From Sandarakinorhabdus oryzae (GTDB taxonomy: Bacteria; Pseudomonadota; Alphaproteobacteria; Sphingomonadales; Sphingomonadaceae): a stretch of DNA of 43,974 nucleotides. The notes beneath the pieces are model-generated. The model saw only the letters and a program-made list of their open reading frames with translations. It did no database searches and had not been told where the DNA came from. Shown here one piece after another: positions 660 through 4,167 of the stretch. The stretch spans positions 1-43,974 of the forward strand of contig NZ_WNJP01000005.1 in the NCBI RefSeq assembly GCF_009733735.1. The letters are read 5' to 3'. A program made the translations under genes and the position numbers. How positions within the stretch are numbered: the first letter of the stretch is position 1; every line of letters starts with the position of its first letter.

Positions 660-716
660 GTGGGCGCGACGGCCTGACCGTTGCAACATGGGCCATGCCT
701 GCTAAAGCCGGGGCCC

Positions 717-2525
717 ATGTCCACACCGCAAGACCGTATCCGCAATTTCTCGATCATCGCCCATATCGATCATGGGAAATCGACGCTGGCCGATCGCCTG
801 ATCCAGACCACCGGCGGCCTCGCGCTGCGCGAGATGTCGGAGCAGGTGCTCGACAACATGGATATCGAGAAGGAACGCGGCATCACCATCAAGGCGCAGA
901 CCGTGCGCCTCGATTATCGCGCGGCGGACGGCAAGGATTATGTCCTCAACCTGATGGACACGCCCGGCCACGTCGATTTCGCCTACGAAGTCTCCCGGTC
1001 CCTCGCTGCCTGCGAAGGCGCGCTGCTGGTGGTGGACGCAGCGCAAGGCGTCGAAGCGCAGACGCTGGCCAACGTCTATCAGTCCATCGAGCACGACCAT
1101 GAGATCGTGCCGGTGATCAACAAGATCGACCTGCCCTCGGCTGACCCTGACAAGGTGAAGAAGGAGATCGAGGACATCATCGGCCTCGATGCCTCCCAGG
1201 CCGTGCTGGCCAGCGCCAAGTCCGGCATCGGCATCACCGAGGTGCTGGAAGCCATCGTCACCCGGATTCCGCCGCCGAAGGGCGATCCGGACAAGCCGCT
1301 GAAGGCGATGCTGGTCGACAGCTGGTACGACCCCTACTTGGGCGTCGTCGTGCTGGTGCGCATCATCGATGGCACGATCAAGAAGGGCCAGCAGATCAAG
1401 TTCATGGCCGCCGACTCCATCCACCTGGTGGACCGGGTCGGCGCCTTCCGCCCCAAGATCGAACAGTTCACCGAACTCGGCCCCGGCGAAATCGGCTTCA
1501 TCACCGCCCAGATCAAGGAAGTCGCCCAGGCCCGCGTGGGCGACACCATCACCGACGCCAAGAAGCCGGCCAACGAAGCCCTGCCCGGCTTCAAGGAAGT
1601 GCAGCCGGTCGTCTTCTGCGGCCTGTTCCCCACCGACGCCGCCGATTTCGAGAAGCTGCGCGACAGCATCGCCAAGCTGCGCCTGAACGACGCGAGCTTC
1701 AGTTTCGAGATGGAAACCAGCGCCGCCCTCGGCTTCGGCTTCCGCTGCGGCTTCCTCGGCCTGCTCCACCTCGAAATCATCCAGGAACGCCTGAGCCGCG
1801 AGTACGACCTCGATCTGATCACCACGGCGCCGTCGGTCGTCTATCACATCGCCATGCGCGACGGCAGCATCCGCGAACTGCACAACCCGGCCGACATGCC
1901 CGACCCGTCGTCCATCCTGCAGATCGACGAACCCTGGATCGAAGCCACCATCTATGTGCCGGATGAATATCTCGGCTCCATCCTGAAACTCTGCCAGGAT
2001 CGCCGCGGCATCCAGAAAAACCTCACCTACGTCGGCGGCCGCGCCCAGGTCGTCTATGAACTGCCGCTCAACGAAGTCGTGTTCGATTTCTACGACCGGC
2101 TGAAATCCATCAGCCGCGGCTACGCCAGCTTTGACTACCACCAGATCGGCCACCGCGAAGGCGACCTGGTGAAGATGTCGATCATGGTCAACATGGAGCC
2201 GGTCGACGCCCTCTCCATGATCGTCCACCGCAGCGCCGCCGAAGCCCGCGGCCGCCACATGTGCGAACGGATGAAAGACCTCATCCCCCGCCACCTGTTC
2301 AAGATCCCGATCCAGGCCGCCATCGGCGGCAAAGTCATCGCCCGCGAAACCATCGCCGCCCTGCGCAAAGACGTCACCGCCAAATGCTACGGCGGCGACG
2401 CCTCCCGCAAACGCAAGCTGCTGGACAAGCAGAAGGAAGGCAAGAAGCGGATGCGGCAATACGGGAATGTGGACATCCCGCAGGAAGCCTTCATCGCCGC
2501 GCTGCGGATGGGGGATGATAATTGA
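717..2525 (+). CDS. lepA: elongation factor 4 (LepA), back-translocating ribosomal GTPase
   Basis: LepA is a translational GTPase that binds the ribosome and helps with stalled translocation and subunit biogenesis. The 602-residue length matches the family (about 600). The N-terminal GTPase domain has the P-loop AHIDHGKST near residues 15-23, the switch II DTPGH and the guanine-specificity NKID. It is followed by the EF-G-like beta-barrel and the LepA-specific C-terminal domain ending in the basic stretch around [15 protein letters not shown]. An in-frame ATG lies 36 nt upstream (681), but [20 protein letters not shown] is the usual LepA beginning, so 717 is preferred. The gene appears monocistronic: the next gene is on the opposite strand after a repeat-bearing gap. 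Confidence 0.97.
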
Positions 2526-2609
2526 GGCCATGATCCTCTCCCGCTGGGGGAGGTGGCGCCCGCTGGGCAACGAGGGGACGACGCCCTCTACCACAGAGTC
2601 CAAGCAGGG

Positions 2610-2643
2610 GCCTCCGGCGGGCAGGGTCGCAGACCCTGCACCC
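2610..2643 (-). repeat. 34-nt REP-like hairpin repeat, copy 1 (inverted)
   Basis: Read on the minus strand this is GGGTGCAGGGTCTGCGACCC followed by TGCCCGCCGGAGGC. It contains an 8-bp stem GCAGGGTC/GACCCTGC around a TGC loop. The same unit occurs at 4134-4167, 4415-4447 and 9078-9111, with a decayed copy at 8772-8805. Relative to the 4134 copy the only two differences sit opposite each other in the stem and preserve pairing. A further CTCCC/GGGAG hairpin lies at about 2534-2549; nothing else is seen in the 2526-2688 gap. Confidence 0.8.
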
Positions 2644-2688
2644 ATGAGTGGAGTGTAAGCCTAATTGTGAGAGCGGACTTGTCTGCTA

Positions 2689-3624
2689 CTAGCCTTGTTC
2701 CTTTTTGCGCCTTTCCTTGCGAAGGAAGATCTCCAGATAGTCCGCTAAGTCGCTCAGGCCGCTCGCAGTGATGGTTTCGGGGAAGATGAGTGTGACATCG
2801 CCGTCATCTAAGGGGAACATGGCCTTCCGCATTCCCTTTGCAGGCGGCTCGGGCGGCTCTTCTTTCGGCAGAGGCATCGTTGGGCGTTCCAAAGGAGCGC
2901 CATCTCCACCGAGTGGTCGTTGCTTAACGAAAACGTTGGCGACCTCCAGTCCAACCTCGCTGCCATCGACGAAAACCCATTTCGCGTCGCTCGAAATAGC
3001 GCGAACCCGCAACGGTTCCGCGTTAGCAATTACTCCTCCGATTTCGTAATCAACCAAGTCTCCTACTTGAGGGGCGCCAAAACGGGACTCTTCGCCAGGT
3101 TCGTTTTGCGACCCCTCGTCAGATTGCCTCTGACCTGCGCTTTGCTTGCTGGCTCCTTCATCAGTGAGTAGCTGCAGGGTGTCCAGGTAGGCCTTTGCTG
3201 CCGGCCGAATAGCAGACTGGTTGAAGCCTTTGCGGTTCAGAAATGTTTCAACGCCTTCATACGGCGGAATCATGTCGGGATAGCGGTCCTGCAACTCCCT
3301 GAACAAATTTGGTTCAAAGGCGGCAAATCTCAGCTGCTCCCTCTTCTCGGATTCGTGGTCCGGATGTAGGATTGCCTTAGCGCGAGCAGTCACCCGCATT
3401 TCGCCTTTTCCTGCCCGTTCGACCAACCCGTACTGTGCCAGCGCGGCCAAGGCTTTGTTGGCTGGGCCGCTAAGTCCCGAATAGCCAATCAGCTTCGCAG
3501 CAGCTTCTCGATCAACATTTGCATTCCGATAAAGGCGTTCAATTTTCCTCACCTCGTCCAATGCCTCACCCAAAGACATGTTTGGGTAGGATGGGCTCCG
3601 AACAGGCTGTGTCGCTGCGGCCAT
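2689..3624 (-). CDS. hypothetical protein with probable winged-helix N-terminus
   Basis: This 311-residue protein is not assigned to a named family. The start at 3624 is chosen because AGGAGG lies at ideal spacing before it; an ATG 54 nt further upstream lacks this. Residues about 15-90 (DREAAAKLIGYSGLSG, ALAALAQYGLVE, KGEMRVTARAKAILHP) have the helix-turn-helix-wing pattern of a winged-helix DNA-binding domain. A polar, low-complexity linker (about 155-180, rich in S, Q, E, G) leads to a small beta-rich segment, a proline-rich stretch (PKEEPPEPPAK), and a C-terminal helix ending in RKERRKKE. Codon use is more A/T-rich than the neighbours, suggesting recent acquisition. It is divergent from the 3733-4105 transcription unit, which it may regulate; that is inference. 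Confidence 0.8.
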   Translation of the reverse strand: MAAATQPVRSPSYPNMSLGEALDEVRKIERLYRNANVDREAAAKLIGYSGLSGPANKALAALAQYGLVERAGKGEMRVTARAKAILHPDHESEKREQLRFAAFEPNLFRELQDRYPDMIPPYEGVETFLNRKGFNQSAIRPAAKAYLDTLQLLTDEGASKQSAGQRQSDEGSQNEPGEESRFGAPQVGDLVDYEIGGVIANAEPLRVRAISSDAKWVFVDGSEVGLEVANVFVKQRPLGGDGAPLERPTMPLPKEEPPEPPAKGMRKAMFPLDDGDVTLIFPETITASGLSDLADYLEIFLRKERRKKEQG

Positions 3625-3691: not shown

Positions 3692-3706
3692 ATGACTTGA
3701 CGTCAT
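3692..3706. promoter_or_regulatory. operator-like inverted repeat over a -35 box
   Basis: ATGAC-TTGAC-GTCAT is a 5+5+5 inverted repeat that contains the perfect 8-bp palindrome TGACGTCA (3698-3705). It covers the -35 hexamer of the plus-strand promoter and lies 68 bp from the start of the divergent winged-helix gene, a normal place for an autoregulatory operator. Function is inferred from position only. Confidence 0.4.
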
Positions 3707-3726
3707 GGCTGCCGATCCCCTATAGT
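3697..3726 (+). promoter_or_regulatory. sigma70-type promoter for the 3733-4105 unit
   Basis: TTGACG (3697-3702) and TATAGT (3721-3726) are separated by 18 bp, close to the housekeeping consensus and stronger than most sequences upstream of genes in this window. A start of transcription near 3733 is predicted. The only elements downstream before the terminator at 4079-4105 are the structured leader and the short ORF at 3939-4022. Confidence 0.6.
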
Positions 3727-3938
3727 GTCACGTGTGCCCAGTCGACGTAGTGCGACGCACATCGAAAGGCGGTCAGAATTATGGGCTGATGTAACGGAGC
3801 CGGCGCCGAGAGCCGGACAAGAAAAGGGCCGACCCAAAGGGCCGGCCCGTGGTTCAATCTCAGCGCCGAAGCGTCGCGATCTCTCCGTGTGGTAACTGAG
3901 AAATCGCACTTTCCGGCGCTGACTGCAAGGAAAATGCG

Positions 3939-4022
3939 ATGATTTGGGTTTCCGCCTATCTTCGCGTGCGGTTTGGGCGTGTGGAACACGTCCGGCCGCA
4001 CTGGCGTTCCTATCCTTTCTAA
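3939..4022 (+). CDS. small basic protein, 27 aa
   Basis: ATG at 3939 is preceded by AAGGA at 3927-3931, seven bases away, which is an excellent ribosome binding site in a region otherwise without one. The 27-residue product begins MIWVSAYLRVRFG, continues RVEHV and ends RPHWRSYPF. It is rich in Arg, His and aromatic residues and has no membrane segment. The spacing of Y-x-R, G-x-V and V-R-x-H-x-R resembles short basic bacterial proteins I have seen, but I cannot name a family. It would be the only ORF on the transcript running from the promoter at 3697 to the terminator at 4079. It could instead be chance within a structured RNA, since the 3966-4001 hairpin lies inside it. Confidence 0.4.
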   Translation: MIWVSAYLRVRFGRVEHVRPHWRSYPF

Positions 4023-4078
4023 ATAGAAGGGCTTGAGCCGTCGGAGTGCATTGCACCGCTGACTGAATTCAAAACTCT

Positions 4079-4105
4079 CGCCCCGCTTCGGCGGGGCGTT
4101 TTTTT
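4079..4105 (+). terminator. rho-independent terminator, plus strand
   Basis: CGCCCCGC-TTCG-GCGGGGCG (4079-4098) is a perfect 8-bp GC stem with a TTCG tetraloop, followed by seven T residues (4099-4105). It is the clearest intrinsic terminator in the window. The nearest annotated plus-strand gene upstream is lepA, 1.5 kb away with an opposing gene in between, so it must serve the 3733-4105 transcript. Confidence 0.9.
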
Positions 4106-4133
4106 GGAAATTGGGGGTTACCCTAAAACAAGC

Positions 4134-4167
4134 GGGTGCAGGGACTGCGTCCCTGCCCGCCGGAGGC
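4134..4167 (+). repeat. 34-nt REP-like hairpin repeat, copy 2
   Basis: GGGTGCAGGGACTGCGTCCC followed by TGCCCGCCGGAGGC; the stem is GCAGGGAC/GTCCCTGC with a TGC loop. It is in inverted orientation to the copy at 2610-2643, so the two form 34-bp inverted repeats with 32 of 34 positions matching, around the winged-helix gene and the small transcript. It lies 29 bp after the terminator. Confidence 0.8.

Follow-up and report, generated by a model that had tools for sequence, protein, structure and literature searches.

A conserved 27-codon microprotein gene of Sandarakinorhabdus oryzae, its structured leader and its mobile relatives

Among described systems, the type I toxin-antitoxin (TA) loci of the hok/sok type come close to the locus reported here. 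Most of the toxins known from such loci are membrane peptides of hydrophobic character. We describe a transcription unit of Sandarakinorhabdus oryzae (Sphingomonadaceae; NCBI RefSeq assembly GCF_009733735.1, contig NZ_WNJP01000005.1) that contains a 27-codon microprotein gene. It lies in a stretch of 43,974 nucleotides, called the window throughout. The locus resembles hok/sok-type loci in its tiny open reading frame (ORF), long structured leader, mobile relatives and possible antisense terminator. However, its peptide is basic and predicted to be all-beta, not a membrane helix, and it is paired with a divergent protein gene, here called gene A.

Other described families overlap with the locus in part. 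The profile phrog_21154 (PHROGs v4, no assigned function) has 47 positions, but the window peptide lacks the first 20, and neither the leader RNA nor gene A is part of the PHROG entry. IS1595-family transposons with passenger genes include relatives of the cassette inside elements with a PF12762 transposase, terminal repeats and 8-bp duplications, whereas the copy in the window lacks both a transposase and terminal repeats of this kind. The domain DUF5343 (PF17278) is matched at 8e-24 by a Hoeflea gene (locus L065) that stands upstream of the microprotein in the slot taken elsewhere by gene A or another protein; for gene A, no Pfam match was accepted. Among the results listed by searches of open-access full text there was no paper on the peptide, its leader, the gene pair or the IS1595 passenger.

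Judged by sequence comparison, the microprotein gene is real and conserved, its leader is structured and its relatives are mobile. A PHROG without assigned function gave the sole family name that could be attached to the peptide.

The microprotein gene and its transcription unit

An earlier, sequence-only reading of the window had left two options for this unit, a novel small RNA or the mRNA of a very small protein rich in arginine, histidine and aromatic residues. The product is MIWVSAYLRVRFGRVEHVRPHWRSYPF, with 5 Arg, 2 His and 6 aromatic residues, as that reading had described. Selection on the codons was examined in the first 24 codons of 11 sequences (the nine rows of alignment A1 with loci L064 and L089). 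The ratio of nonsynonymous to synonymous differences (pN/pS) is 0.29 in frame versus 1.05 and 1.72 in the shifted frames. None of the 11 sequences has an in-frame stop in these codons, whereas the shifted frames contain stops. Variability at codon positions 1, 2 and 3 is 0.17, 0.11 and 0.44, and the check for synonymous-biased codon change was thus positive. The ORF is also the best conserved block of the unit alignment, judged by eye. Its codon pattern indicates that it is a protein gene under protein-level selection. The mRNA option holds because of this selection and because the family is broad.

Members of the family share the core Y-x-R-x-R-x-x-x-x-E-x-V-x-x-H-x-R. It is present in the window peptide, and its Y, R, R, E, V, H and R are invariant in 17 of 17 chosen members (alignment A5). 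The window peptide is 44-74% identical to eight homologues (alignment A2) and matches phrog_21154 at 3.3e-9, its residues 2-26 aligning with positions 21-45 of the 47 in the profile. A plasmid form matches the same profile at 5e-10 and three other forms at 9e-9 to 3e-6. An AlphaFold model of a 40-residue member (L087) is all-beta with a predicted local distance difference test (pLDDT) score of 88. The microprotein model gave no PDB fold match at E up to 0.001, and the PDB sequence search returned a single match at E 1.4. In L114 (G231:C20) the core motif occurs as a tandem duplicate within one microprotein ORF.

The signals around the ORF lie where the sequence-only reading had placed them (Table 1). 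The promoter can be read directly, the 9-bp outer arms of the long leader hairpin are perfectly complementary, AAGGA stands seven bases before the 27-codon ORF, and the GC stem with seven T follows downstream. The claim that such a set is unlikely by chance failed for the patterns alone. In 10 kb, promoter-like sites numbered 1 versus 2.0 expected from shuffles, with no excess, and terminator-like sites 8 versus 6.9; the patterns alone are not beyond chance, so the case for the unit has to rest on other evidence.

Folding and conservation lift the unit above chance, and to that extent the claim stood. The predicted transcript folds at -165.7 kcal/mol (z -4.4), and none of 100 shuffles was as good; its complement also folds well (z -6.0). 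TTGAC is found 91-108 nt ahead of hairpin H1 in five of 11 sequences, window included. The Shine-Dalgarno region reads CAAG in nine of nine aligned sequences and CAAGGA in eight. The ribosome-binding site, ORF and terminator all recur among the aligned homologous loci, and the terminator stem has pairs with both sides changed. In a wider set of 49 loci, which counts one genome twice (L070 and L104), plus-strand terminator patterns follow the ORF in 25, versus 5 of 155 control places. Two ORFs on the minus strand, of 117 and 93 amino acids, overlap the unit and are taken as chance occurrences.

Table 1. Features of the locus in window coordinates
Feature	Position	Strand	Remarks
REP-like repeat (repetitive extragenic palindrome), left border of extra region	2607..2649	-	
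Gene A, 311 amino acids, divergent from unit	2689..3624	-	predicted winged-helix N-terminus, beta domain, beta-beta-alpha tail
Sigma-70-like promoter TTGACG-18 bp-TATAGT	3697..3726	+	TTGACG 3697-3702, TATAGT 3721-3726; direct read
Predicted transcript, ~370 nt, putative start	3733..4105	+	promoter-to-terminator span; folding z -4.4
Leader hairpin H1 (CCGGC..GCCGG)	3800..3816	+	helices 1 and 2: 90.0% and 96.9% of cells paired
Leader hairpin H2	3826..3848		stem followed by TTTT when read on the minus strand, an intrinsic-terminator pattern there
Leader hairpin H3, long	3860..3922	+	outer arms 3860-3868/3914-3922
Leader hairpin H4, small (GCA..UGC)	3925..3937	+	most of Shine-Dalgarno in loop; helix 8: 89.6% of cells paired
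Shine-Dalgarno AAGGA	3927..3931	+	7 bases, then ATG 3939
Microprotein gene, 27 codons, MIWVSAYLRVRFGRVEHVRPHWRSYPF	3939..4022	+	pN/pS, codon-position variability, phrog_21154 match
Intrinsic terminator	4079..4105	+	8-bp GC stem 4079-4098, TTCG loop, seven T 4099-4105
REP-like repeat, right border of extra region	4125..4167	+	

The leader RNA

The sphingomonad leader has some 145 nt of covarying hairpins, the whole predicted mRNA leader being ~200 nt. In most of nine sequences, single-sequence folding yields the hairpins H1 and H2, the long H3 and, around the Shine-Dalgarno, a small H4. In a 12-sequence alignment 90.3% of the cells at leader pairs are paired, versus 33-45% (maximum 45.1%) when one side is slid. 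Both sides have changed in 16 of 31 pairs and 46 cells, versus 9.6 and 16.3 in shuffles, counted in the model-fitted alignment A7, which leans towards structure and whose rows are related. The outer pairs of H3 show both-side changes in all six modelled. A MAFFT alignment misregisters the 5' arm of H3 and was not used for pair counts. G-U cells exceed A-C cells by 25 to 12 across the leader and by 17 to 8 in H3 alone, and in nine of 12 sequences the plus strand gives the more stable H3. The check for covarying stems across homologous regions was positive, and the covariation argues that the leader is selected as an RNA structure.

No family among 4227 in Rfam reached its gathering score anywhere in the window. 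Sub-threshold matches were rejected, since all fell below their gathering scores (for example STnc100, 24.5 of 47 bits); several on the plus strand, STnc100 among them, include the terminator. Of the small-RNA option, then, one part stood, a conserved covarying RNA with no Rfam match at gathering score, but this RNA is the leader of the microprotein mRNA.

A covariance model of the leader was built from nine sequences. Outside this seed it matches L064, L089 and L150 at 73, 58 and 87 bits. Weak matches of 17-25 bits fall at the corresponding place in L070, L071, L072 and L103. Searched genome-wide, the model found matches in 295 of 397 family genomes at E 0.01; ten scored above 85 bits and the others among those listed reached at most 48 bits. 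We read the low-scoring matches as mostly H2-like hairpins, where the E-values of the model are untrustworthy. Because such matches are common in sphingomonads, H2 by itself is not specific. Four A before the H2 stem are invariant in nine of nine sequences. Minus-strand terminator patterns lie 5' of the ORF in 13 of the 49 loci versus 4 of 155 control places. Seven of the 13 are at the place of H2 (106-120 nt before the core motif), three in Rhodobacteraceae are slightly further up, and three are elsewhere.

A possible 7-codon mini-ORF (GTG to stop) ends beside H1 in five of 11 leaders and may be a leader peptide (L057 5217-5280, L058 4073-4136, L059 5860-5920, L060 5750-5812 and L061 5300-5363). 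The window does not have it in that form.

Mobile relatives, gene A and other neighbours

A search by peptide alone recovered 28 loci in the genome collection (these include the contigs of L052, L055, L058 and L060, where gene A and transposase were scored). They span Sphingobium, Pacificimonas, Paracoccus, Hoeflea, Rhizobium, Bosea, a Ferrovibrio metagenome-assembled genome (MAG) and two Bacteroidales/Bacteroidia MAG contigs. With the S. oryzae genome counted in both samples, the microprotein occurs in 25 of the 397 genomes from the family and in 15 of the 398 from the phylum. It is also found in two viral contigs, one of which has the same ORF as a bacterial contig among the loci. At the loose limit of E 10, 79 plasmid and four phage records match a homologous 26-mer (best E near 0.01). 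In none of the 20 plasmid records listed among the 79, whose gene tables are incomplete, does an annotated feature cover the matched place.

The microprotein gene of phages Oslo and phi-8 lies between cI and N, after a gene of 172-173 amino acids that in Oslo corresponds to phrog_2602. At least 80% of the DNA of the Oslo pair region is present in 232 of 5426 E. coli genomes, and in the one E. coli record examined the microprotein ORF is intact and unannotated. On Enterobacter and Serratia plasmids the gene faces an AAA-family gene. These convergent pairs (L123 and L124) sit on two Enterobacterales plasmids, one conjugative and one mobilizable, and the L123 Enterobacter gene is AAA_13, with the candidate defence family PDC-S06 as its best PADLOC match (2e-250). 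The microprotein genes of L113, L114 and L117 lie in unusual places, between or beside what we take to be phage portal and terminase genes, and near dnaN- and recF-like ones.

IS1595-type transposases stand near the microprotein in 12 of the 28 loci, convergent and downstream in ten of these; in L068 and L083 the transposase has the same orientation as the microprotein. Two representatives match PF12762 (2e-41 and 4e-40) and PF12760, and the transposases beside the microprotein form two subgroups. In the phylum sample a transposase is present in L169 and in the shared contig of L166 and L175. Terminal repeats of the form GGG(A/G)CCTATATAC..TG..TGACCCA with exact 8-bp duplications bound the elements of L052, L055, L057, L070, L072, L091 and L103. 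An eighth such element, L089, has terminal repeats and a target duplication offset by one base, and L058 shows one transposon end only. The window has no IS1595 transposase within ~3.5 kb of the ORF and neither terminal repeats nor an 8-bp duplication of the L057 pattern. A conserved gene of 53-61 amino acids lies between the microprotein and the convergent transposase in L052, L058, L070, L072, L089 and L091; the one member scanned matched no Pfam family.

The sequence-only reading had called the unit an orphan. This was wrong, as the unit is one half of a divergent pair with gene A, and relatives of the unit belong to mobile cassettes. Gene A has no accepted Pfam, NCBIfam or PHROGs match and no PADLOC match at E up to 1. 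Its model (pLDDT 84) shows N-terminal helices with a two-strand wing and has no PDB fold match at E up to 0.001. Among the 397 family genomes, 20 have gene A, 25 the microprotein and nine both, the S. oryzae genome included (hypergeometric P 4e-7, relatedness ignored). Gene A stands in the same divergent arrangement at ten of the 28 loci found via the peptide alone. In the phylum sample it lies near the peptide in L164 and L170, and weakly in the contig shared by L166 and L175. From the other side, the unit is beside nine of 21 places with an A homologue, and the other 12 were excluded from the leader analysis.

Unit DNA beside A homologues is 68-75% identical in five loci (blastn, short words), and the A proteins at these unit-bearing loci are ~35-51% identical. 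The blastn pieces in L052, L058 and L045 are short, and the unit was recognised there by ORF and terminator. L044 was in the first alignment and was then dropped because neither ORF nor leader is recognisable. The unit DNA alone gave a full match only in the window when compared with 60 relatives (50 genomes had a match at E up to 1, and the other matches listed were pieces of at most 47 nt), and no match by blastn in plasmids and phages. Homologues of the unit were reached only through gene A; a first scan of genome contigs with gene A found no relative.

To the left of gene A lies lepA (681-2525, plus strand). To the right of the unit are egtD-like and egtB-like genes on the minus strand, names that we presume from their Pfam domains. 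In relative G001 only ~240 bp separate lepA and egtD, so gene A and the unit were either gained here or lost there. G002 and G011 had no lepA match within 1.5 kb of flank. A REP-like repeat of ~40 bp (CGGGTGCAGGGACTGCGTCCCTGCCCGCCGGAGGC) occurs in the window at 2610(-), 4125(+), 4409(+) and 9071(+), and recurs near egtD in relatives.

At other loci the place of gene A is taken by proteins of 125-241 amino acids. The neighbour in L074 has an IrrE-like peptidase domain, and the other scanned neighbours, DUF5343 aside, matched no accepted family; three of four scanned had no PADLOC match. A shared C-terminal tail of gene A and the lambdoid 172-residue protein, likely by eye, failed hhalign and hidden Markov model tests and was dropped.

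Competing explanations and biological meaning

We think it somewhat probable that the unit is a mobile cassette gene whose leader restrains the production of a basic microprotein of predicted all-beta fold, and that this microprotein serves as an effector benefiting the mobile element. The ~370-nt mRNA would consist of the ~200-nt leader with H1-H4, the 27-codon gene and the terminator. Translation would be kept low by H3 together with H4, the small hairpin that surrounds the Shine-Dalgarno. H2 may stop opposite-strand transcripts before they reach gene A, and in intact transposons these would be the transposase mRNA. The winged-helix-type protein A, or its substitute elsewhere, might regulate or partner the peptide. 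The peptide itself would be a small nucleic-acid- or protein-binding effector for the mobile element, its role most likely toxin/antitoxin-like or one of superinfection exclusion. Toxin/antitoxin-like, exclusion and transposition roles can only be inferred, and the present evidence does not separate them.

Several observations weigh against this cassette model. Gene A occurs without the microprotein in 11 of the 20 A genomes, and neither gene A nor a transposase was found in 23 of the 49 loci within ~3.5 kb or a shorter flank. Ten neighbour proteins showed no relation to gene A by hhalign, so a fixed two-protein partnership is not demonstrated. In 11 of 12 sequences the minus strand gives the more stable fold of the whole leader, and the window is among the three of 12 in which H3 also folds better on that strand; this preference clouds which of the two strands has its structure under selection. 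In L150 (G402:C2:575512-575651) the leader scoring 87 bits is followed by a frameshifted microprotein ORF. As the peptide has no significant fold match, nucleic-acid binding is an inference from its charge.

The minus-strand folding of the whole leader would also suit a type I TA-like locus, in which the peptide is a toxin repressed by a minus-strand RNA complementary to the leader and ending at H2. As expected of such a locus, H2 is a conserved minus-strand terminator pattern ~110 nt before the core motif of the ORF, the leader is long and structured with the Shine-Dalgarno in a hairpin, and the tiny ORF has mobile relatives. However, no minus-strand promoter was found in the window at the scan threshold, and H3 alone prefers the plus strand in most sequences, with the G-U excess given above. 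The peptide, rich in Arg, His and aromatic residues and with a relative predicted to be all-beta, is not of the hydrophobic membrane type. We consider a type I locus unlikely. That the RNA is a non-coding regulator with an incidental short ORF is very improbable. Strong folding and covariation are consistent with it, as is the retained leader with broken ORF in G402, but the pN/pS and third-position bias speak against it, and relatives without such a leader retain the peptide.

The convergent downstream transposases, of two subgroups, and the existence of complete elements could point to an accessory or regulator of IS1595-type transposition, with the peptide controlling the transposase or its converging mRNA. 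Yet a full-length transposase is lacking near the peptide in 16 of the 28 loci, the phage and plasmid copies examined showed none beside them, and the window copy is intact without one, which makes such a role quite improbable. The slot between cI and N is one expressed in lysogens, and the phage position together with the AAA-family genes, one of them matching PDC-S06, would suit a superinfection-exclusion or defence module in which peptide and variable neighbour act against phages. Location does not equal function, however, and gene A and three of the four scanned neighbours lack a PADLOC match; we give a module of this kind a low probability.

Returning to the mobile cassette with a leader-throttled effector, it is possible, though we put this forward only tentatively, that the relatives form an unnamed class of mobile effectors. 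Such a class would have a constant beta-fold core of ~26 residues, neighbours that can be exchanged (winged-helix, coiled-coil or other proteins) and, among sphingomonads, a leader RNA controlling translation; transposons, temperate phages and plasmids would carry it, and it has been seen in Bacteroidales MAG contigs too. If true, this would be a toxin-antitoxin or exclusion system of a new type, with a fixed effector and a partner that is swapped. At this locus a leader RNA with no match in Rfam comes together with a peptide that stays constant and partners that vary. Its microprotein gene is easily overlooked despite being conserved between phyla and in different types of mobile element, and it poses a testable question: what a 26-residue peptide does for transposons, phages and plasmids alike.
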